Assembly (NCBI GenBank): GCA_024663395.1
Contig: JANFAH010000006.1
Location: 1,054,001-1,118,000 of the forward strand
DNA: 64,000 nucleotides
Reading direction: 5' to 3'
From: Pisolithus tinctorius
Taxonomy: Eukaryota > Basidiomycota > Agaricomycetes > Boletales > Pisolithaceae
Of this stretch, positions 23,552 through 56,727 are shown piece by piece (position 1 is the first letter of the stretch; each line of letters starts with the position of its first letter). The position numbers and the translations under genes were made by a program. The notes below the pieces were generated by a model. The model worked only from the letters and a program-made list of their open reading frames with translations, was not told the DNA's origin and did no database searches.

Positions 23552-26500
23552 ATGTGGAGTCAATACGACAACTTGTGGCAAGTAAAGAAAAGACGCACCG
23601 GCAGAGGACAAAACGCACCATCGATGCGAGATCTTTGGGGACAACTTACACAGCAAGAAGTTTACGATTGCATCCCACCCGGGTCACTGCCGCAAGGACT
23701 CCGGACATGGGCGCAGCTCAGACCTGCTATAAGCCAACTGCCAGTCGATGTTCAGCAACATATACAGGTGGTTGCTGCTGAAAAGGAGCGAACTAAGAAG
23801 CAGCGAAAGTGTGAAGCAGACAGGGCATACCAAGCGAAACGGCGAACATTAATGCGGCTCAGACAGTCGATACCAAAGGCTGGTCAGTCTTCAACACAAG
23901 ATACATTCCAAGTTGGCATGTGGGAGGCCGAGTACCTGAAATTACCTTCGCACGAAGAAGTACGGGCCTGTGTCACATCATTCATTAAGGCAACTGGCAA
24001 TGCAGCATTACGTCAGTGTGTATGTGTTGTGTGCGCACACGAGCTGATGAGCAGTGAAGGTTAGATTTCGCAGTCATGAATATTATAACCTTTAATTATG
24101 ATGACAGGGAAAGAACAGGTTATTAAAAACATACCCAATGTTGAATGCCATCTCATGCCCGAAGTTGAGCATCACGCGCACAATTTATGGCAAGGCCTAT
24201 TGCTGTTGAAGGCACACATGGACGAGACTGGGACGGGATGGGTGTGTGTGGACTGCCTTCGAGCCTTGAGTGGCGACAGAATGCCGAAGCTAGCACTAAA
24301 CAATAACATGTGGTTGGGAGATGCACCACTGGTACTGCGAAAATTGACCTTCGCAGAAACGCTTTTGGTGGCACGGCATTATCCTTGCTGCTACATTTTC
24401 AAGTTATACCCCAAAGACGGTTCACATGGATATAATCCCGCTCACCTTCAACGTGGCATGGCTGGCAACGTCACATTGTACGAGGTCAATACGTTGGCGA
24501 TTGCGAACATGGTGGAAGGCAGTATGATGCCGCAAGAGGTCACAACGCTCAGCAATGTTATCGCAATCACATTCATGGGAACGAGGACGTTGCCAAAGAA
24601 TTGGATGTCGCACACCTTTCAGGCGCGCCGGGAAGCAGTTCATGAAGCATTACTCTGGCTGAAAGCAAACAATCATCTTTACCATGATATTACGATATCC
24701 ACACAGCGACTGATGACACTACCTGACGATGAAATTCTGGTCGAAATAGAAGCCATTATCCAGTGCAAGGATGATGCTGCAGTCGCAGCGCAAGAGAACG
24801 AAGGTTATGTCCAGGATAGCATAGACAATGAAATGGGTATGATTTTCATATAACAGACAACGGTGACTTACAATTCATGACGTTGACAGAGACCACTGAT
24901 GAAGTAAACAAGGATGATATTGATGTTGCAGTGAACAGTGATTGTGGTTCCGCCGGTGTTGATGACGAAACCAAAGATGACGGTGAGAAGTTGCATGGAC
25001 TGTATACAACTCTTAGCAGCGTCTGAACCAACGACGTATAGAAGCAGATGTCATACCTCTGCATGCTCTCGGCGTCACGGATACCGATCTCGCAAGGGTC
25101 TCTTCTTCGGAGCTCATGATGTACGTGCTCGCCAACCTGATGGACGCGACACAGGAAGGAGGATACGTGGTGCGCCACAGTGTCAGGCCTATAGGAGACT
25201 TTGGCAAGAACACAATAGAAAACGGTACTCCCAATCCGCTTGCAGCAGCCTTCCCGTGCTTGTTTCCTTATGGACTCGGTGGTGTTGAGGCCGAACACTC
25301 GATTAATGTCAGCCTCTGCGAACATGCTAGGTGGGCAATGCAGTATTACGACCACCATTTTGTCATCCACCATGCATTCCCCTTCGTGATCTTTGCTATG
25401 ATCCAAAAGCAGGATGCGATGCAGTCCACTCATCTGCAGATGCAGAGAAAAGACTTTGAACAAGATGCCCTGGTGCTGTCTTGCCTGACTGTCGTGGACT
25501 TACGGAAGGCAGAAGAGGAGGAAGGCAGAAAAGCGAAGATTAGCAATCCAAGGGTACAAGCATTGCAAAAACATGTAGTCACTGCGAACAGTAAGGTTGA
25601 GGGCTCTGACAATGCCCGCACTCAGTATCGGGGAATGATATGGGGAACCTGTCTTTTTCTGGGTGGACCTATGATATGGATGACCATCAATCCTGCAGAT
25701 GTACACGATCTGATCGCTCAAGTCTTGGCTGGAGAGGCAATCAATCTCGATAAATTCGACGTTCTTGGTGGTCCTGATAGTCATCAGCACGCGATCAATA
25801 TTGCTAGCAACCCATACGCAGCTGCCAAATTTTTCAATCTCTTGATTGAAAGCACGTTGGAGTGTTTGCTGGGTATTAAAAGGCGGCTGTCGCAAACCAC
25901 TAGTGAGATGGGCATTCTTGGTGAACTGTCCGGGTATTTCAGTGTGGTGGAGGCGCAAGGCAGAGGTACATTACACGTGCACATGCTGCTATGGTTGGCT
26001 GGCAACCCCAACCCAGAAGAAATGCAGCAGCTCTTGCAAACACCAGCATTCTGCGAGAAAATTCGAGAATACATCTGGGAGAACATACGGGCCCATCTGG
26101 ACGACATTACGGAAGAGGATTTGAAGACGATGCCTTGAAACTTGCAAATAGCATATTCGCAGCCACCTGACCCCGCTGCAGATGATTGGGCAAAAGAAAG
26201 TCACACGCTCGAGCGACAGCTTCTGCGATCTCAACAGCTTCACACCTGTTCCCACTCTACATGTCTTCAGGTCCAAAACGGGCAACTTCTATGTAAATGA
26301 CATGCACCCTGGCCTCTCAGTGAAGAAGTCTACATTGATGAAAAGGGGAACTGGAGACCAAAGAGAACCCATGGGTATATCAACAATTATTGTCCATTGA
26401 TACTAACAAATTTGCGATGCAACAACGACATTAAGATTAACACCAATGGCGAGGATACGAAGGACGTTACATTTTATGTTACTGCATATGCCACGAAGAA

Positions 26501-29500
26501 ACAAAAAAGGTCTCATAACCTTTCCGCACTAATGGCATCGGTGTTGGCCTACCATGAAAACAATCCTCAGTATGAGGACCTACGGGAACGCAACCGACTG
26601 CTACTATATCACTGTATCAACGTCATCAACCGTGAGGCGGAATTGTCAGGACCGCAGGTGGTGTCCTACATCATGGGTTATGGGGATACATTCAGGTCAC
26701 ACAGTTACACACCGTTATACACCAGTGCGCTGTTCTCAGCCATCAGATGAATGTTTCCAAACCTTTCAACTGCAAAAGTTGACAGGTAAGTATGGAGCCA
26801 TGTATGATATTGGGACCGAATACTCATCTCCCTGCGATCAGAACTGCGGAGGGGTGCACAGATTCATGCAACATGGAGCGCATTACAGATGACGTCGAAC
26901 CTGATGACGCCAAACTGCCAGAGGTTAGCAGAAACAGAGATGTAAGCTCAGCACAATCAAATGAGGCACATTAATGACGAATGTATTCAGGAGGATGGCG
27001 AGATGGTCACACTTCATGCCAATGAACGTGGCGATGTTTATACATGTTCACAGCTCAATGATTATCTTTACCGTGGCTCGGAAATGTACCATTGCAGCCT
27101 TTTAGCATTTGTAGTCAATACATGGGAAGAAACTTATACACCACTCATTGCGCATGAACAGATGGAGCATGTCACCCCTAAACGAGGCCGGCCAGCTCAT
27201 GTGCGATCGCATTACATGAACAATCATCCAAGAAAAGACACACACCATCATGTTTTTCGAGCCCAAGGTCACAACACACTACCACAAATATCAGGGCTGT
27301 GGTTCCCTCGAGTGGACACCAGTAATGAATTCTACTGCACGTGTATGCTTGCTCTTTTGAAACCATGGCGGACTGCTGAAGACCTCAAACGTAATACAGC
27401 ATCTTGGATTGAAGAGTTCGACTCGTTTAAGGCACAGATGGGGCCTTGCCATAGATGGATTCTGGCAGGAATACAATTCTATTATGATTCAAGAGCTGCA
27501 TGCGACACCACATTAATGGAGGCATCAATGTTTCCAAGGCAAAATACACGAGTACCTCGAGATGGCTTACCCTTAGATGAGGACGGGGACCTGTGTATGG
27601 AAGAATCGCGCATCCCTTTAACACACGCCGACCTCATACAGTTCAAACGCGATCAAGTGTCGCGGAATGAGGAGAGGCATGCGGAAGAGGCAATCATCAT
27701 CGGTATGAGCCGTGGTTTCTTTACGATGTCAGAACCACGAGCAGCTTCAAATCTGGTCAGCTACCATATAGCCCATGGGGATGATCATACATGCCTTCTG
27801 AGATGGCTCAAAACCATGCATACAATGGCTTCAAAGATGACGGGCACGGTTGACTCACAAACAGAGACTATCTTCGACGGTGCAACGAGTGTCGAGAACA
27901 GCATTAGCAACCTCACCAGTGCACTCATGGAAAGCGACCACGGAGACACAGCCCTACTCAGTGTGCTGACCAGGGACATCAATGTCCTGAAATCTGTACC
28001 TGTTGCTGAGCTGTTGGATGATCAGCGGCGTGCATACGACATCATTGATTGGCATTTACAATGCCATCTGTCAGGGCACAACCCTCCACAATTGCGAATG
28101 GTCATTCCAGGCGAAGCCGGCGTTGGGAAATCGAAGACAATTCAGACCATCACCGACAACTTTCGCTCACGCAGAGTACAGCACTTACTGGTGAAAGCAG
28201 CCTACACTGGAATTGCAGCATCAACCATAGACGGACAAACGCTGCATTACATCGTGATGATACCTCTTCATGGTGGGAAGCAGTCAGCAAAAACCAAGAA
28301 GGCTCTGGAAACATACTGGCGAAATAAAGAGTATCTTATTATAGACGAGATTTCCATGGTGTCCCGTTCATTCTTCACGATGCTTTCCGACACCATCAGT
28401 CACGCCCGGACTGGTGAGGCCTCTACAACAGATGAGCCCTTTGGAGGGCTGAACATTATCCTTGTTGGCGACTTTCACCAATTCCCTCCAGTTGCCAGCA
28501 AAGCGTCGGCACCATTGTATTGGCCATCCAACGCGGAGAAGGATACCGACCTTGAAATGCTAGGCCACAAGCTATACAAACAGTTCGATGTTGTCGTGCG
28601 CCTGAAAACTCAAGTCAGGGTCACTGATACTGAATGGATAGAACTCCTACAACACGTCCATCATGGTAACTGCAAAGAGAAACACATCTCTATGCTTCGT
28701 AGCCTGGTACTTACTAATGAGCAGTGCGCTCTGGTTGACTTCATGCAGCTCCCATGGAGCAATGCTCTTTTGGTGACGCCATGTCATGCAGTGCGCATAA
28801 AGTGGAATGAAATGACAGCAAAGGCGTGTACACACGCACAGGGCACGACACTCTTTACAAGTCCAGCTTTCGACACAATAGACGGCAGGGGTTTAACGTT
28901 GGAGGAGCAATTTGCAGTTGCTGCGAAACCGAAAGGGTCCCAGGGTCGTAAGTGGCAAGAGCGCGGTGGCCTTGCTGATGAGGTTGTCCTTGCTGTTGGC
29001 ATGGAGGTTATGGTAACATTTAACATTTGGACCAGTTTGGACATGGCAAATGGCGCCTGCGGACACATTGAAGAAATTGTATTGGATGCGAGAGAGGAGA
29101 CAACAAAACTTGGTACGCACTGCGTCGACTTGCAATATCCTCCTTGCTACGTTTTGGTCCGCATGAGCCGAACGAAAGCTGAGGGGCTGGATGGCTTACC
29201 ACAAGGCGTTCTTCCAATTGCACCGCTTTTGAGAACCTTTACAATTGTGACTGAAAATGGCGAGAAAAAGACAGTGACAAGACAGCAATTACCTGTGACA
29301 CCTGCATACGCATTCACAGATTATCGATCACAGGTGCAGACGATTGAATATTGTATTGTCGACATCGGCACGCCACCATCTGGGGGTCTTACACCGTTCA
29401 ATGCATACGTGGCGTTGTCGCGCAGCTGCGGCAGAGACACAATTCAACTGTTGCACGACTTTGATGAAAGGTTATTCACTCAACATCCAAGTGAATATCT

Positions 29501-29576
29501 CCGGCAGGAGGATCAGCGGCTGGCAACTCTTGATCGCAAGACGTATGTGGACTGGGAAAAAGTGAAAGCAGCATAA
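23552..29576 (+). CDS. Helitron Rep-helicase transposase, three premature TGA
   Basis: A six-exon model keeps phase throughout: 23552-24059, 24108-24836, 24890-24982, 25042-26785, 26842-26941 and 26991-29576, with introns of 48-59 bp (1920 codons). It begins with a basic N-terminus. A Cys pair follows (CVVCAHEL, CVDCLRAL). The Rep part has TINPADVHD (about 25685), the HxH motif TLHVHMLLW (about 25970) and the paired tyrosines FYVTAYATKK (about 26475). The Pif1-like superfamily 1 helicase has Walker A GEAGVGKSKT (about 28115), Walker B LIIDEISMV (about 28340), VGDFHQFPPV (about 28465) and VALSRSCGRD near the end. This enzyme nicks and unwinds DNA for rolling-circle transposition. In-frame TGA codons at 26136, 26298 and 26748 sit where Arg (CGA) would be expected, so this copy is probably inactive. 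No frameshift was needed. Confidence 0.88.
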
Positions 29577-30156: not shown

Positions 30157-30336
30157 TGTTGCAATAAATGCAACCAGACAGGGGATTGAACCCTGGACCT
30201 CCCAGGTTTTTCTCGACCGGGTGCTCTAACCACTGAGCTATTTGGTCAAGGTATCTTGGCTTACTTGGTGTGGTTTAACCACCAAGTGCTAGTAGGGACT
30301 AGCGCTGCTGAGTGCTGGAGTACTACACTTGCAACA
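30157..30336 (-). mobile_element. Solo LTR of tRNA-bearing TRIM, 180 bp
   Basis: TGTTGCAA...TTGCAACA, TSD GAATG (30152-30156 and 30337-30341). The tRNA-like part is at 30172-30247 on the minus strand and has four extra bases in the anticodon loop compared with the 176-bp copies. Confidence 0.9.
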
Positions 30337-35145: not shown

Positions 35146-36423
35146 TGCAATCAGGAGTTGGTGAGGCGATTTGGGGCGCCTTGGGTGGTTCTGGGGTGTC
35201 CAGAGATGGTGTAGAAAGGCGAGTGGATAGAGGGAAGTACCTCTCATCGAAATCAGCCCTCTCAGAGATCAGGGTGCGCTTTGTGGTAGGGTTATAGAAT
35301 TTCCATCCTTTGTAGCCCTCAGGATAACCAATAAACACGCATTTCTCCATGTGGGGATCTAGGGGTCGCCTCTTGTCCTTCTGGATGTGTACATAGGCTG
35401 TACAGCCCCAAACTCGAAGGTGGGACACATCTGGCTTCCTCCCATGCCAGAGCTCATAAGGGGTCGCATTCTGGACCGCTTCAGTAGGTCATCTGTTCCA
35501 AACATGCACCAGGGAGGCGAGGCACTCGCCCCAGAAGGCCTTAGGCAAGCCAGACTCATCCAACATGGCTGTAATTCGCTCTGAAAGTAGTCTGTTGGCT
35601 CGCTCTGCAACTCCATTCTGCTGCGGTCGATTTCTGACTGTGTGCTGGCGCTGGATACCGCATTGGGTGGTGAAATCATCGAAGGCCTTGCTCATGTACT
35701 CCCCTCCTTTGTCATCGCGCAAAATCTTGATTTTTCGCTCTGTCTGGTTCTCAGCAAAGGCTTTGAAGGTTTTGAAGGCCTCAAAGACATCAGACTTCGC
35801 TTTTAGAGGCAAAACAAAGCGAAAGCGAGAGAAATCATCGATGAAAGTGACCCAATACTTGTAGCCAGAGAAGGAGGGGTGGCCTACTTGGTGTACATCA
35901 CTGTGGATGAGTTCTAGAGGCTGTGAAGCGCGCCAGGACGAGGTAGGAAAGGGATTTGCATGCATCTTGCCAGCCAGGCAAGGTTCACAGACAGGGTCAG
36001 GTGTAGACTTTGAGGCTATGGCCATTCCAGTCACCAGTTTTCGCTGTAGGAGTGATTTGACACCAGCCAGATGGTGGTGGGCGAGTCTCCTGTGCCATAG
36101 GTCTTGCAAGATCCAGAGGCAGGGTAGTTGCTGCTGAGGCATACTCAGTGAGGGGAACAGTCTCACCCTCCAGCAAGGCCGAGTTGTTGTCCGAAATTCG
36201 CGCAATGAAGAGGGGATGTCGAGAGCGCAGCCTAAAGTTCATCTGCGAAGAGTTGATGCTCACAGTGAAGTCCCTGGTGCGACAGAGAAATAACACAGAT
36301 AATAGATTATTCCGAAGATCAGGGACATGAAGGACATTGCTAAACTCGACAGCACGACGCTTTTGACCTCCCACCACAGGCTCAAAGAGCACAGACCCCA
36401 TCCCAGCTGAATAGACAATTTTA
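35146..36423 (-). pseudogene. Copia-2 protease C-terminus and integrase
   Basis: On the minus strand: IVYSAGMGSVLFEPVVGGQ (from 36423), the integrase HHCC zinc site (RLAHHHLAGVK, CEPCLAG), and the core with D in IHSDVHQVG, D in LRDDKGGEY and E in NGVAERANR. Then come VWGCTAYVHIQKDKRR and ISERADFDERYFP. One frame change occurs near 36110 (an indel in the DLARP stretch), and a second break near 35490. It is collinear with the intact frame of Copia-1 at 39352-40600. Confidence 0.85.
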
Positions 36424-36769
36424 TGTTGCAATAAATGCGACCAGACAGGGGATTGAACCCTGGACCTCCCAGGTTTCGACCGGGTGCTCTAACCACTGAG
36501 CTATTTGGTCAAGGTATCTTGGCTTACTTGGGGTGGTTTAACCACCAAGTGCTAGTAGGGACTAGCGTTGCTGAGTGCTGGAGTACTACACTTGCAACAG
36601 CCTCCCCTAATCCAGTGCACAGCAACGCTAGTCCCTACTAGCACTTGGTGGTTAAACCACACCAAGTAAGCCAAGATACCTTGACCAAATAGCTCAGTGG
36701 TTAGAGCACCCGGTCGAAACCTGGGAGGTCCAGGGTTCAATCCCCTGTCTGGTCGCATTTATTGCAACA

Positions 36770-36782
36770 GGTTATGAGCCCC
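36770..36782 (+). promoter_or_regulatory. TRIM primer-binding site (initiator-tRNA anticodon arm type)
   Basis: GGTTATGAGCCCC directly follows the LTR. It is complementary to GGGCTCATAACC, the anticodon arm of initiator tRNA-Met, and equals the Copia PBS at 37825 in its first 13 bases. Confidence 0.8.
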
Positions 36783-37052
36783 GGGCGCTTGTGGGATTGT
36801 CCTGATAAGTCCTTTCTGCTTAAGGCAATGGATTCCCATGGTGGGTTTTCGCTGATAAGACCTAGTGGTGCCTGATAAGACCTGGACCGAGGCAACATGT
36901 GTAAGCCCTACCAATTAAGGCAATGGCCCCTGAGCCTCGTAAGACCTTTGCAGGAGGCAACATGCTGTAAGACCTTGGATGAGGCAATGGCTACTTTAGG
37001 CAATGAATTCCCACGCTTGTGCCTTGTTGCTGTGCACTGGATTAGGGGAGGC
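36783..37052 (+). other. TRIM internal region with short repeats
   Basis: Non-coding. A pattern (G/T)AAGNCCT ... GAGGCAAYATG or AGGCAATGG recurs five to six times at 25-35 bp spacing. It ends in GGATTAGGGGAGGC, the probable polypurine tract. Confidence 0.7.
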
Positions 37053-37228
37053 TGTTGCAAGTGTAATACTCCAGCACTCAGCAACGCTAGTCCCTACTAG
37101 CACTTGGTGGTTAAACCACACCAAGTAAGCCTAGATACCTTGACCAAATAGCTCAGTGGTTAGAGCACCCGGTCGAAACCTGGGAGGTCCAGGGTTCAAT
37201 CCCCTGTCTGGTCACATTTATTGCAACA
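37053..37228 (+). repeat. TRIM 3' LTR, 176 bp
   Basis: 8-bp perfect inverted ends TGTTGCAA / TTGCAACA. It contains the tRNA-like sequence at 37142-37213. Confidence 0.92.
37142..37213 (+). tRNA. tRNA-Phe(GAA)-like sequence inside the TRIM LTR
   Basis: 72 nt fold as a full cloverleaf: acceptor GACCAAA/TCTGGTC (6 of 7 pairs), D stem GCTC/GAGC, anticodon stem CCCGG/CTGGG with loop TCGAAAC (anticodon GAA), variable AGGTC, T stem CAGGG/CCCTG (5 of 5) with loop TTCAATC. A box TAGCTCAGTGG and B box GGTTCAATCCC fit the RNA polymerase III consensus. Base 33 is C rather than the universal T, and no T4 terminator lies in the LTR, so a working tRNA is unlikely. Other copies (minus strand) are at 30172-30247, 36439-36510, 45097-45168, 47449-47520 and 51918-51989, plus 36683-36754 on the plus strand. 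Confidence 0.8.
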
Positions 37229-37589
37229 TTTTATTGTCTGCTAGCTTGATAGGAACGCGTTTTGGGCTGTAATTTCGCAGCCAATGGCGATGGGGCGTCA
37301 TATGAGCAGTGGCCCCCGAGTCTGCGATCCAATGGACGTCAGCATCGAGTTGGAGAGGGCAGAGAAGGGAGGAGGGGTCAGGGAAGCGAAGACTTGCATT
37401 TCCTGCGAATTCTACCGCTTGGGCTGCGGCCTTAGACCTTTCCATCCTTTCGCATTTATGGATACAGTGGCCTTGATAATCACAGAACGAGCAAGGGGAC
37501 GAAGTTGGGCACTTGCAATTCGCGAAGGAGGTGAATAACGCGTGGTCCGATCTGCCTGCATCAGGGCGCCGCTTCCGCTGCGATTCTTC
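37229..37589 (-). pseudogene. Copia-2 Gag C-terminus and protease start
   Basis: Minus-strand text: zinc knuckle CSFCDYQGHCIHKC (CX2CX4HX4C), then a deletion of the basic linker (MERSK joined to AAAQAVEF). Protease DSG follows in WIADSGATAHM. It ends where the TRIM is inserted. Confidence 0.85.
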
Positions 37590-44834: not shown

Positions 44835-45543
44835 AAGTGAGAGTAATCTTCGCCTAGGGAGCACACCATAGCCATACAGACAAGCTCATTGTCCATATCC
44901 TGGATGGAGTAAGGTGTAGCTGAATTCTGAGGGCGCAATTCTTGAATCTTAGACATGGAGTCTTCGATTCTCGCGATTAGGGAGCTTAAGGACTCATCTG
45001 GCTGCTTTCTGATCGAATAGAAATCGTCCCAAGCATTAAAACGAGCTCCAGGGCATTGCTGGAGATGGATGGAGGCTAGAGTGTTGCAATAAATGCGACC
45101 AGACAGGGGATTGAACCCTGGACCTCCCAGGTTTCGACCGGGTGCTCTAACCACTGAGCTATTTGGTCAAGGTATCTAGGCTTACTTGGTGTGGTTTAAC
45201 CACCAAGTGCTAGTAGGGACTAGCATTGCTGAGTGCTGGAGTATTACACTCGCAACATAGAGTGGACCATATCCTCACAGGATCATCCTGTACAGCGTCC
45301 ACATGTGTCCTCTGCTCGCTAGAGAGGGCCAGGTAGAGTTCTCCTGCCGCTTTGTCCGCTCTGAGGTCCCATTTGGCTCTAGCTTCAGTTTTGGACTCAT
45401 CAGGGCGCTTTTCAGTGCCACTGACAATAAGTCCACCGGCCTTTGGTGCGCAGAAAAGCCTTCATTTCGCCTTTCCAGGTGTTATAGTTGGAGGAGGTGA
45501 GTTTGGTCACAGAGAGCGACGAGTGGGAGTGGTCCTCGGCCAT
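44835..45543 (-). pseudogene. Copia-3 Gag N-terminal part
   Basis: Starts MAEDHSHSSLSVTKL at 45543, a frameshift near 45430 follows, and the TRIM LTR (45082-45257) splits it. It continues beyond Copia-2 at 32629. Capsid text SLSSLIARIEDSMSKIQELRP is conserved. Confidence 0.85.
45082..45257 (-). mobile_element. Solo LTR of tRNA-bearing TRIM
   Basis: 176 bp, TSD TAGAG (45077-45081 and 45258-45262). The tRNA-like part is at 45097-45168 on the minus strand. Confidence 0.93.
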
Positions 45544-47393: not shown

Positions 47394-47862
47394 TGTTCAA
47401 ATAACTCAACCTGAAGGCCTTGTGCCCAGTGTATGTTGCAATAAATGCGACCAGACAGGGGATTGAACCCTGGACCTCCCAGGTTTCGACCGGGTGCTCT
47501 AACCACTGAGCTATTTGGTCAAGGTATCTTGGCTTACTTGGTGTGGTATAACCACCAAGTGCTAGTAGGGACTAGCGTTGCTGAGTGCTGGAGTATTACA
47601 TTTGCAACAGTGTAAGAGACTAATATTGAAGTAAATAACTACAGGAGACATACCTTGTGCCCAGTGTAAGAGACTGAAGAAAATGTCTCTGGGCACAGAG
47701 CAGTAAGTGCGCAAAAATGATAAACAAATGTAAATAGTAAACAAAAGCAAAGCAAGGACACTTAGAGCGCAGCTAAGTGTCCACTACAAGTCTGTAGAGT
47801 GAGAAAAGCACATAATAAAAGACAAACTGCGAAATGAGGTGCACAGGCACCACATATGAACA
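47394..47862 (-). repeat. Solo LTR-B, inner, itself split by TRIM
   Basis: TSD ATTAT (47389-47393 and 47863-47867). Confidence 0.93.
47434..47609 (-). mobile_element. Solo LTR of tRNA-bearing TRIM
   Basis: 176 bp, TSD GTGTA (47429-47433 and 47610-47614). The tRNA-like part is at 47449-47520 on the minus strand. Confidence 0.93.
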
Positions 47863-51902: not shown

Positions 51903-52078
51903 TGTTGCAATAAATGTGACCAGACAGGGGATTGAACCCTGGACCTCCCAGGTTTCGACCAGGTGCTCTAACCACTGAGCTATTTGGTCAAGGTATCTTG
52001 GCTTACTTGGTGTGGTTTAACCACCAAGTGCTAGTAGGGACTAGCATTGCTGAGTGCTGGAGTACTACACTCGCAACA
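51903..52078 (-). mobile_element. Solo LTR of tRNA-bearing TRIM in Copia-4 RT
   Basis: 176 bp, TSD TCTTC (51898-51902 and 52079-52083). The tRNA-like part is at 51918-51989 on the minus strand. Confidence 0.95.
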
Positions 52079-53189: not shown

Positions 53190-55268
53190 TCAAAGGTGAG
53201 AGAGGTCTGGCTTGTGTCCATGCCATAGTTCATATGGGGTCGCATTTGGGACAGCTTCAGTGGGGCACCTGTTCCATACATGGACCAGGGAAGCGAGACA
53301 TTCTCCCCAGAAGGCTTTGGGGAGTCCAGACTCATCCAGCATCGCAGTAATTCGCTCTGAAAGCACCCTATTAGCTCGTTCAGCAACTCCATTCTGCTGA
53401 GGGCGATTCCTGACAGTGTGCTGGCGCAGGATGCCGCATTGGGTGGTAAAATCGATGAAGGAATTGCTCATATACTCTCCTCCTTTATCATCGCGCAAAA
53501 TCTTGATATTTCGTTCACTTTGGTTCTCTGCAAAGGCCTTAAAGGTCTTGAATGCTTCGAAAACCTCTGATTTAGCTCTGATAGGCAAAACAAAGCGATA
53601 GTGCGAATAATCATCGATGAAAGTGACCCAGTATTTGAATCCAGAGAAGGAGGCATACCCTACAGAGTGTACATCGCTGTGGACGAGTTCTAGGGGTCTG
53701 GAGGCGCGATTTGAGGAGCTGGGGAATGGATTGGCATGCATTTTTCCAGCCAAGCAGGGCTCACAGATGGGGTCAGGAGAGGTTGTTGAGTTTATGGCCA
53801 TCCCAGTGACCAGATTTCGATTTAGTAGCGACTTGACACCTGCCAGATGGTGGTGAGCAAGTCTCCTGTGCCAGAGGTCAAGGTCCAGAGGCAGTGTGGT
53901 CGCTGCAGAGGCATATTCAGTGATGGGGATGGTCTCCCCCTCCAGGAGGGCCGAGTTTTGGTCCGAAATTCGCGCAACGAAGAGGGTATGGCGAGGGCGC
54001 TGCCTGAATGCGATTTGCGAAGAATTGATGCTCACAGTGAAGCCCTTATTGCGACAGAGATATAACACAGAAAGTAAATTATTGCGCAGGTCAGGGACAT
54101 GCAGGACATTTGTAAACTCGATAGGACGACGCTTCTGACCCCCCACTAAAGGATGGAACACCACAGACCCAACTCCAGCTGAATAGACAATTTTGTTGTC
54201 TGCTAACTTCACAGGGACGCATTTTTGGCTGTAATTTCGCAGCCAATGGCGATGAGGCGTCATATGAGCAGTGGCGCCTGTGTCTGCGATCCAAGAAGTG
54301 TCAGCATCGAGCTGGAGAGGGCAGAGAAGCGAGGAGGGGTCAGAGGAACGAAGACTTGCATTTCCTGCGAATTCCACTGCTTGGGAGGCACTCTCCTTCG
54401 GCGAGGAGGTAGAAGGCGGGGTGCCTGTAGCTGGGGTCGACTGGGGCGCGCTGGAGGGCTGATTCGCGGTGTTGGCAGGCTTTTTGTTGCGCTGGCACTT
54501 CTGGGAGAGGTAGATGGACTTCGCTCTTGCCAGGTTTTGGCATTTATGGACACAGTGTCCTAAAAATTCACAGAACGAGCATGGGGTCGAGGTAGAGCAC
54601 CTGCAATTGCTGGAGGAGCTGAATAGCGCGGTTTCGGATGTGTGGGCATCAGGGCGTCGTTTTCGCTGCAATTCCTCAGCCAGGAAGGCTTCTTTTAGTT
54701 TCTCCTTGTCCAGGGATTGGAAGAGGAGTAAGGAGGACGCAAAATGGGAGTATTCTTCGCCCAAGGAGCGAACCATAGCCATGCAAACTAGCTCATTATC
54801 CAAGTCCTTGATGGTGTAGGGACTGGAGGTGCCTTTGGGACGCAATTCCTGGATTTTAGACATGGAATCTTCGATCCTAGCAATCAGAGAGCTCAGAGAC
54901 TCATCTGGTTGCTTTCTAATGGAGAAGAAGTCGTCCCAGGCATTGAAACGAGCACCAGGGCGCTGTTGGAGGTGAATTGAGGCGAGGGTCGACCAGATCT
55001 GGACAGGATCATCCTGAACAGCCTCCACATGGGTCCTCTGTTCGCTAGAAAGCGCCAGATAAAGCTCTCCAGCTGCCCTGTCCGCTCTGAGGTCCCATTT
55101 AGAGCGAGCTTCGGTTTTGGACTCATCTGGGCGCTTTTCAGAGCCATTAACAATGGTCCAGAGGCCTTTAGTGCGCAGGAAGGCCTTCATTTCGCCTTTC
55201 CAGGTATTATAGTTGGAAGATGTGAGTTTGGTGACTGAGAATGACGAGTTGGAGTGTTCTTCAGTCAT
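53190..55268 (-). CDS. Copia-4 Gag-protease-integrase
   Basis: 692 codons, open. Gag starts MTEEHSNSSFSVTKL with NTWKGEMKAFLRTKGLW and the capsid text seen in Copia-1. The zinc knuckle CSFCEFLGHCVHKC is near 54570. The protease has WIADTGATAHM, with DTG as active site (about 54290). The integrase has LWHRRLAHHHLAGVK and CEPCLAG, D in LVHSDVHSVG, D in LRDDKGGEY and E in NGVAERANR. It ends at a TGA that replaces the CGA of SHL-R-VWGC in sister copies. Gag builds the particle, protease processes it, and integrase inserts the cDNA making 5-bp duplications as seen throughout this window. With that single change aside, it is the best preserved coding region of the family here. Confidence 0.93.
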   Translation of the reverse strand: MTEEHSNSSFSVTKLTSSNYNTWKGEMKAFLRTKGLWTIVNGSEKRPDESKTEARSKWDLRADRAAGELYLALSSEQRTHVEAVQDDPVQIWSTLASIHLQQRPGARFNAWDDFFSIRKQPDESLSSLIARIEDSMSKIQELRPKGTSSPYTIKDLDNELVCMAMVRSLGEEYSHFASSLLLFQSLDKEKLKEAFLAEELQRKRRPDAHTSETALFSSSSNCRCSTSTPCSFCEFLGHCVHKCQNLARAKSIYLSQKCQRNKKPANTANQPSSAPQSTPATGTPPSTSSPKESASQAVEFAGNASLRSSDPSSLLCPLQLDADTSWIADTGATAHMTPHRHWLRNYSQKCVPVKLADNKIVYSAGVGSVVFHPLVGGQKRRPIEFTNVLHVPDLRNNLLSVLYLCRNKGFTVSINSSQIAFRQRPRHTLFVARISDQNSALLEGETIPITEYASAATTLPLDLDLWHRRLAHHHLAGVKSLLNRNLVTGMAINSTTSPDPICEPCLAGKMHANPFPSSSNRASRPLELVHSDVHSVGYASFSGFKYWVTFIDDYSHYRFVLPIRAKSEVFEAFKTFKAFAENQSERNIKILRDDKGGEYMSNSFIDFTTQCGILRQHTVRNRPQQNGVAERANRVLSERITAMLDESGLPKAFWGECLASLVHVWNRCPTEAVPNATPYELWHGHKPDLSHL

Positions 55269-55746: not shown

Positions 55747-56703
55747 GTGGGAGTCAGATTCTTGTGAGGAGGGAGGTGGAGGTGGGATTGGCTCATTTAT
55801 CATCCCTGGGTCATCTGAGGGTGGAGGTGGAGGTGAGATGAGGCCATTGTTGGTCTCATCTTCATCAGACTGTGGTGGGGCGGTTTGCTCCTCACTATCA
55901 TCACTTTCTTCACTAGGTCACAGTGGTGGCACCTCATCAGCCACATCCTCAAGATCATCAGGAGGCAGCAGGGGTGGTGGAATGTCATTGTCAGGAGGCA
56001 GCAGGGGGGTGGAATGTCATCTTCTATTAGTGCAGTGTCCTCACAGGGCAGAGGTGGTGGTGGAATTGGATCAACCATTGATGCGGAAACCTCAGAAAGC
56101 CATGGTGGAGGTGGAAGGTGCTCCAGCATCTGGCTATGTCCACCATGGCTTGTCAACTGTCAGGTGGTTCCCACCTTTTGACCCCTCCTTGAGGGGCCTG
56201 CAGATTGTGGAGGGTCCTCTCCCCTGGCTTCAATGTGGCAAATATGAACTATGAATGATTAATGGAATTGTGGTATGAAATCAAATGAACCTAACCTCTG
56301 GGATTAAAGCATACTCCCTGGGGAATTTGGTCTGCCATAGTGAAACAATTTCACTTGTTGGAAGCCATTGCTGCTCCAAATATCAATGTTCAACACCCAA
56401 CCATGGGAACATCTGCCACAAGGCAGGAGTCATGAATGTCATGTTTCCATGCCTGGTAAGAAAGATAAATGCTGGCCACCTGGCATATAATCTGGTGGAA
56501 ATGCCAACAACTACATGGCAATGGCATGGGTGCCAACAAATGCATGTGTGAGTCAAAATGAAACGATTGAGGCCCTGTGTAACAGGGGTGGGGGATGCCC
56601 CCTGACATGACCATTGCAGCCTGAACTGAATCAATGATTTCATCACCTCTATAATATTATATGTACATGCAGATTGAAACTCCATCTGAGATCACTGCAT
56701 CCT
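55747..56703. other. Old flank, no gene recognised
   Basis: CpG-poor, with GGTGGAGGTGG-rich stretches at 55770-56130. The Pro-rich minus-strand frame is compositional. Confidence 0.45.
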
Positions 56704-56727
56704 TGTCTGGTTGCATTTATTGCAACA
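56704..56727 (+). repeat. TRIM LTR remnant
   Basis: Last 24 bp of the tRNA-bearing LTR (TGTCTGGTTGCATTTATTGCAACA with one base lost). Shows older copies exist outside the Copia nest. Confidence 0.7.

Follow-up and report, generated by a model that had tools for sequence, protein, structure and literature searches.

When a short repeat contains a tRNA-like sequence, the question arises whether it is a tRNA gene, a SINE or part of an LTR retrotransposon, and in the last case how an element without genes is copied. This question is raised by positions 36424 to 37228 of a 64,000-nucleotide stretch of Pisolithus tinctorius DNA (C6:1054001-1118000, in the following called the window). The initial annotation had described a 176-bp repeat with TG...CA termini and inverted ends of 8 bp, accompanied at five loci by the target-site duplications (TSDs) GAATG, TTTTA, TAGAG, GTGTA and TCTTC. 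This description holds: the LTR ends read TGTTGCAA...TTGCAACA, all five duplications are exact, and three copies, one of them truncated, lie within the unit in question, while the other four copies in the window are solo LTRs:

30157..30336, minus strand, solo LTR with TSD GAATG, tRNA part 4 nt longer
45082..45257, minus strand, solo LTR with TSD TAGAG
47434..47609, minus strand, solo LTR with TSD GTGTA
51903..52078, minus strand, solo LTR with TSD TCTTC

A further partial LTR match in the window comprises 27 bp (56701-56727).

The genome (92.5 Mb, 221 contigs) was searched with the LTR, which gave 105 first-look candidates with the best 40 scored, so that all copy numbers are lower bounds, and with the interior of the element (12 candidates, all scored). 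From the fetched loci at least 65 full-length LTRs of this family (family A) were taken as the set for the counts below; TG...CA ends are present in 64 of them. Twenty of the 65 belong to units with an interior or a primer binding site (PBS). The other 45 are solo LTRs, 39 with an exact 5-bp TSD and six without, and the widespread lack of TSDs that would have spoken against the initial annotation was not encountered. Furthermore, the LTR-interior-LTR pairs of about 635 bp which it had led one to expect exist outside the window as five canonical miniature LTR retroelements (TRIMs) of 635-636 bp, each with a 5-bp TSD:

C8:1006906, C3:1219067, C48:74350, C71:88190 and C71:120900, canonical TRIM elements

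Their LTR pairs differ at 1, 3, 0, 1 and 2 sites in 176 bp, which indicates that the family moved fairly recently. The empty site was found for two of the five, and none was seen for the other three in the fetched loci. The 12 places with an interior are these five, the window unit, three units with a 5' Copia LTR and three others, namely two with a truncated 5' LTR, seemingly duplicates of each other (on C5 and C103), and a fragment on C49. The LTRs are crowded, since 51/65 lie 1-30 kb from another one (random placement: mean 2.7, maximum 14 in 1000 runs), in part because the fetched flanks expose neighbouring copies. A tRNA-derived SINE with coincidental TSDs, to which the tRNA-like head and the short, dispersed copies would be suited, has a practically negligible probability in view of the almost invariant TG...CA ends, the fixed 5-bp TSDs and the units in the order LTR, PBS, interior, polypurine tract (PPT), LTR. 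A SINE would lack LTRs, PBS and PPT; given the paired LTRs with 5-bp TSDs this candidate was rejected, and the repeat is an LTR, as annotated.

The locus in the window itself contains the parts of a TRIM, as had been stated, but it is a rearranged copy of 805 bp with three LTRs and not a model TRIM:

36419..36423, left target-site duplication TTTTA
36424..37228, plus strand, whole integrated unit, a rearranged TRIM copy of 805 bp (TSD and empty-site matches)
36424..36599, minus strand, inverted full LTR copy of 176 bp (97.7% identical to 37053-37228 reversed)
36600..36626, minus strand, reversed PPT-side end of the interior, 27 bp (100% identical to interior positions 257-283 reversed)
36608..36769, plus strand, 5'-truncated LTR, aligned positions 15-176 (96.3% identical to 37053-37228)
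36770..37052, plus strand, interior of 283 bp, which leaves no room for a retrotransposon gene (found at 12 genomic places)
36770..36790, plus strand, PBS, complementary to 20/21 nt of the 5' half of the presumed host initiator tRNA-Met
37039..37052, plus strand, purine-rich tract preceding the 3' LTR (by reading of the sequence)
37053..37228, plus strand, 3' LTR, reference copy of family A (by LTR comparison)
37229..37233, right target-site duplication TTTTA

PBS, 283-bp interior and purine tract are thus present as described. The leftmost LTR is inverted and attached via 20-27 bp of reversed PPT-side interior, whose last 7 nt (CAGCAAC, 36620-36626) are common to the LTR and mark the inner junction; the truncated plus-strand LTR is devoid of its first 14 bp. 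The interior has a single TTTT (36846-36849). When the flanks are joined minus one TSD, the resulting 195 bp match uninterrupted Copia-like DNA without a gap at five places (C24 with 96.4% identity, C1 with 91.3%, C49 with 86.7%, window 54096-54290 with 85.6% and C45 with 84.6%), and therefore the 805 bp arrived in one piece, inside an older Copia. A plain 635-bp TRIM at this locus is ruled out by the length of 805 bp and the inverted LTR. We favour reading this copy as the result of an aberrant process in which the minus strand folded back at CAGCAAC before extension and integration. It would have folded back at this 7-nt match, copying its own LTR and PBS, and may then have joined a second minus strand at the PBS, by which route the observed order would be obtained.

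Each LTR copy of the unit carries a tRNA-like sequence, within which the boxes of the 3' LTR are listed:

36438..36510, minus strand, tRNA-like sequence of the inverted LTR (Rfam RF00005, 58.3 bits)
36683..36755, plus strand, tRNA-like sequence of the truncated LTR (Rfam, 58.3 bits)
37142..37214, plus strand, tRNA-like sequence of the 3' LTR with the anticodon-like GAA and C33 (Rfam, 59.7 bits, E 2.1e-10)
37149..37159, plus strand, A box TAGCTCAGTGG, kept in 65/65 full LTRs
37193..37203, plus strand, B box GGTTCAATCCC, with GGTTCAATCC kept in 64/65 full LTRs

The A and B box motifs were used in the form described in the text of PMC10886601. The cloverleaf with both boxes had been annotated from the sequence, and it withstood the check with a covariance model: Rfam and ARAGORN call a tRNA in all seven LTR copies of the window, with Rfam scores of 55.5-59.7 bits for six copies and 47.9 bits for the seventh (cut-off 29), and the anticodon GAA is likewise read by ARAGORN in 6/7. 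A tRNA-arm pattern with up to three mismatches has six matches in the window and 0 in 100 shuffles, which together with the genome-wide recurrence with TSDs excludes chance. Taken by itself, the tRNA part has an ordinary folding energy (z -1.39); the weight rests on the covariance model and on the repetition. A scan of viral contigs with the tRNA part gave 0 matches. For annotation it is of importance that such LTRs inflate tRNA gene counts, as all seven tRNA calls in the window are LTRs.

The designation as tRNA-Phe-like can be kept for the anticodon reading GAA but not as far as a Phe gene is concerned, which is unlikely because position 33 is C in 52/65 full LTRs and T in 13/65. tRNAs carry U at this position. 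The discriminator base is G in 51/65 and A in 14/65. The commonest family A form has 20/21 standard cloverleaf pairs, with a mismatch at the acceptor pair 6-67 that recurs in the four sequences of family A and the four of a second family (B, see below) which were compared. In addition, TTTT is absent from 65/65 full LTRs, in which only 14 nt follow the tRNA part, whereas among ordinary tRNA genes in the fetched loci T4-T8 occurs within 40 bp in 10/10 distinct genes. That the element spreads a working tRNA-Phe gene is thus very improbable, even with Rfam scores of 58-60 bits in 5/7 window copies, the nearly complete cloverleaf of the commonest form and the minority of LTRs with T33. A functional gene, for which U33, a paired acceptor stem and a nearby terminator are to be expected, was rejected as unlikely, the 13 LTRs with T33 having the first of these. 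The tRNA sites that vary in at least four copies all lie within CpG pairs, for which reason the forms with T33 and with discriminator A look like products of CpG decay. At LTR positions 33/34, 118/119, 122/123 and 161/162, family A has shared variants that replace C by T or G by A within CpG, pointing to methylation-linked decay; the shared variants outside CpG include positions 14 and 80.

The second family is represented by LTRs with the ends TGTTGGAGATGG...CATTTTCATCA:

C5:2997807, C12:509016, C44:296367 and C67:109579, family B LTRs

The tRNA part is common to both families (identity of 83-85% at four matches of 78 bp); outside of it their LTRs are alignable nowhere, and their PBSs are of the same kind. 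A comparison of the commonest family A sequence with the C5 sequence of family B shows four stem pairs in which both bases have changed and pairing is retained; one further mismatch exists in 2/4 family B sequences. Either the cloverleaf was kept between the families or two related tRNAs may have been captured. In family B, TTTT stands directly after the tRNA part, in U5.

A role of the tRNA part as RNA polymerase III (Pol III) promoter appears plausible, and an LTR without TTTT fits a promoter that needs read-through. Alternatively, the tRNA part could be a relic without promoter function and the TRIM could be transcribed by Pol II from U3. Within family A it is not clearly more conserved than U3: mean heterozygosity is 0.035 in both, and the shared non-CpG variants (0/73 sites in the tRNA part, 7/89 in U3; p 0.017, post hoc) are reduced to 5/89 in U3 (p 0.065) when two that resemble decayed CpG are subtracted. 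A relic would also agree with the ordinary folding energy of the tRNA part and with the TTTT at position 77-78 in 11/11 full interiors, which as a caution counts against easy Pol III read-through; this TTTT and the one in U5 of family B would hinder Pol III if T4 terminates in this fungus. However, an A box intact in every full LTR, a B box intact in all but one and a second family in the same genome that has the tRNA part in common, with LTRs otherwise unalignable, speak against a relic, and we regard this alternative as unlikely.

TRIMs with tRNA-like LTRs are already in print as Helenus (TRIMp3) from animals, Selaginella and fungi, among them rusts, Agaricus, Coprinopsis and Amylostereum (Kojima 2024, PMC10886601). 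As far as described in the text of that paper, Helenus is a short, gene-less LTR element with tRNA-derived sequence in both LTRs, a PBS and a PPT at the ends of the interior, 5-bp TSDs in fungi and a PBS shared with resident Copia elements, the fungal PBS mostly corresponding to the anticodon loop with the initiator tRNA-Met as dominant type. The elements here are gene-less and 635-636 bp long (five complete copies, 283-bp interior), their LTRs contain a tRNA according to Rfam and ARAGORN, PBS and PPT are in place, 5-bp TSDs flank 39/45 solo LTRs and 5/5 canonical elements, and the first 14 nt of the PBS are identical to those of a resident Copia. From these features a new Helenus family is recognized, accompanied in this genome by a second one. 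The novelty seen by the initial annotation, a parallel invention of the plant TRIM Cassandra in a fungus, has accordingly to be given up in favour of a new member of a published group that includes fungi. Cassandra likewise has the sequence of a Pol III gene inside its LTRs but, as presented in PMC7215508 and PMC10886601, it is a plant element with 5S rRNA instead of tRNA and is described with a terminator. In the window an Rfam scan up to E 0.1 detected tRNA but no 5S rRNA.

The PBS in reverse orientation, AAGCGCCCGGGGCTCATAACC, is identical in 20/21 nt to AAGCGCGCGGGGCTCATAACC, which occurs three times (C1:5124853, C6:382291 and C6:599264) and is preceded by a D-arm that we take to be typical of initiator tRNA-Met; C19:907242 also fits the pattern of the initiator half, with a shorter gap. 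The primer therefore looks like the 5' half of the host initiator tRNA-Met. Priming at the anticodon loop occurs in Drosophila copia and Ty5. Both elements, as cited in PMC10886601, likewise have a PBS for an internal part of a tRNA, but they are autonomous.

The element is most probably a Helenus-type TRIM whose LTR contains a promoter derived from a tRNA and presumably used by Pol III, and which is copied in trans by a resident Copia family. Observed are the anatomy, the TSDs, the PBS match, the empty sites and the PBS common with Copia; Pol III transcription, packaging and primer use of the TRIM are what we infer from them. In the 5' LTR, Pol III would initiate close to the A box and, because the LTR is without TTTT, would read through. 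The promoter idea for tRNA-bearing LTRs is also Kojima's (text of PMC10886601). The TRIM RNA would then enter Copia particles, where the 5' half of the initiator tRNA-Met would prime the first strand at the PBS, with the tRNA-U5 part acting as R for the first jump. The plus strand would afterwards be primed from the PPT, and Copia integrase would insert the product, giving the 5-bp TSDs. TRIMs with promoters of the Pol III type are gene-less, and the partnership of TRIM and Copia could be tested in the cell.

The resident Copia at C49:219286-224354 has two LTRs of 291 bp and the PBS whose first 14 nt agree with the TRIM PBS. It is nested in the PBS of a TRIM (TSD TTATG), and C49:224362, a candidate for a tRNA-bearing LTR on a Copia, was rejected since it is explained by this two-LTR Copia inserted into the TRIM PBS. 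The Copias of the window have Copia domains and LTRs related to those of the C49 element. Among at least 120 matches to the Copia reverse transcriptase, the three that carry organism names belong to Taiwanofungus, Moniliophthora and Trametes, all of them agaricomycetes, in keeping with a probable agaricomycete host. More direct traces of a partnership are units in which both kinds of LTR are combined:

C3:1202222-1202969, hetero unit of 5' Copia LTR, TRIM interior and 3' tRNA-bearing LTR, TSD GTATG

This unit has an empty site of 195 bp without gaps (90.3%), the only one found in the fetched loci for the three Copia-LTR/TRIM units. The same order without a TSD is seen at C38:295743-296491 and C3:1174223-1175149, which may be recombinants. 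The reverse arrangement, a tRNA-bearing LTR followed by Copia PBS and gag, exists at C45:101673 and in a C69 duplicate. The distance from PBS to reverse transcriptase (RT) is shorter in the C49 Copia than in the C45 Copia. The 3' end of the latter was not found within positions 106150-106900, which are still RT, and 107350-108420, which contain neither type of LTR. A short junction pattern, in which eight letters of the LTR follow the Copia PPT and up to two mismatches are tolerated, matched 49 times and its reversed control 12 times; TGTTGCAA is intact in seven of the 49, and one of the seven (C12:195200) proved to be the flank outside a solo LTR. A longer pattern with up to three mismatches had nine matches, eight TRIM PPT ends and one solo LTR with TSD, and thus revealed no Copia PPT joined to a 3' tRNA-bearing LTR, although more diverged LTRs could escape it.

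In the hetero units as well as in the C45/C69 copies the switch of LTRs falls at the PBS shared by TRIM and Copia. Switches at this position are predicted if plus-strand strong-stop DNA anneals to the PBS of the other element, and point to strand transfer between co-packaged templates; in this case TRIM and Copia RNAs would have shared a particle. In our estimation it is an even proposition that entire LTRs, unrelated to each other, are swapped between the TRIM and its Copia helper in this way, plus-strand strong-stop DNA being transferred from one co-packaged template to the other at their common half-tRNA PBS. DNA recombination or gene conversion after insertion, without reverse transcription, is a possible origin of the hetero copies at less than even chance. 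It would be in line with the lack of a TSD in two of the three Copia-LTR/TRIM units, the crowding of the copies and the missing 3' end of the C45 unit, but the TSD GTATG flanks the entire C3:1202222-1202969 unit, the empty site is uninterrupted and, apart from the PBS, no homology was seen at the switch.

Sabot and Schulman are said to have reported template-switched LTR insertions in Triticeae in 2007. For wheat, template switching or gene conversion has been suggested as the way in which LTRs pass from autonomous to non-autonomous elements or the reverse (PMC9744471). Asymmetric proviral LTRs of HIV-1 are proposed in PMC9278108 to arise when plus-strand strong-stop DNA moves to the PBS of the other genome copy; here, in contrast, a TRIM and its presumed helper are concerned and the LTRs are unrelated. 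In the main text of PMC10886601 both 'tRNA-Phe' and 'chimer' occur 0 times, and neither a hetero-LTR unit with Copia nor a unit with an inverted LTR was seen in its text; among the later papers listed by a literature search, none other is, by its title, on TRIMs with tRNA-bearing LTRs. What is added here to the text of PMC10886601 is the traces of LTR exchange with Copia. The helpers of Pol III-type TRIMs were inferred there from shared PBS or interior sequence. Here the PBS is the point at which LTRs of TRIM and Copia meet, in one unit with TSD and empty site, so that the partnership becomes readable from DNA; if strand transfer is true, hetero-LTR insertions would name the helper directly from sequence and provide a route for tRNA-bearing LTRs onto new interiors, gag-pol included.

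Several further arrangements were noticed around both families. At C12:509434-509503 (minus strand), upstream of a family B interior, the tRNA part begins inside the A box and directly follows unrelated DNA containing TATATAAA; this junction may have arisen by chance or reflect a switch of promoter. At least nine mirror-image pairs, 18-39 kb apart and in two cases 2.3 kb, are formed by relatives of family B with interiors that are 78-80% identical and LTRs that are 86-87% identical among the matches listed:

C20:556396/574575, C28:298979/318559, C36:516060/536560, C38:189889/211044 and C2:1046768/1067195, mirror pairs
C6:742764/770479, C15:834798/873745, C108:74935/77261 and C6:2667162/2669483, mirror pairs

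It looks as though a large transposon had taken up an old TRIM into its long terminal inverted repeats; a search of the large pairs for a Maverick polymerase B, run without a positive control, gave no match. The canonical TRIM at C71:120900-121535 is missing from the segment C9:183500-184600, with which its joined flanks agree at 99.5%. A solo LTR with TSD AAGAG lies nearby in each of the two segments; the TRIM may have entered after duplication of the segment. At C9:186000-190200 an inverted repeat (arms of at least 883 bp at 99%, with arrays of repeats of about 65 bp) holds in each arm the same family A solo LTR with mirrored TSD, as if one insertion had been copied onto the opposite arm. 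Within the window, positions 25017-29576 contain an ORF with a Helitron-like N-terminal domain followed by a PIF1-helicase ORF.
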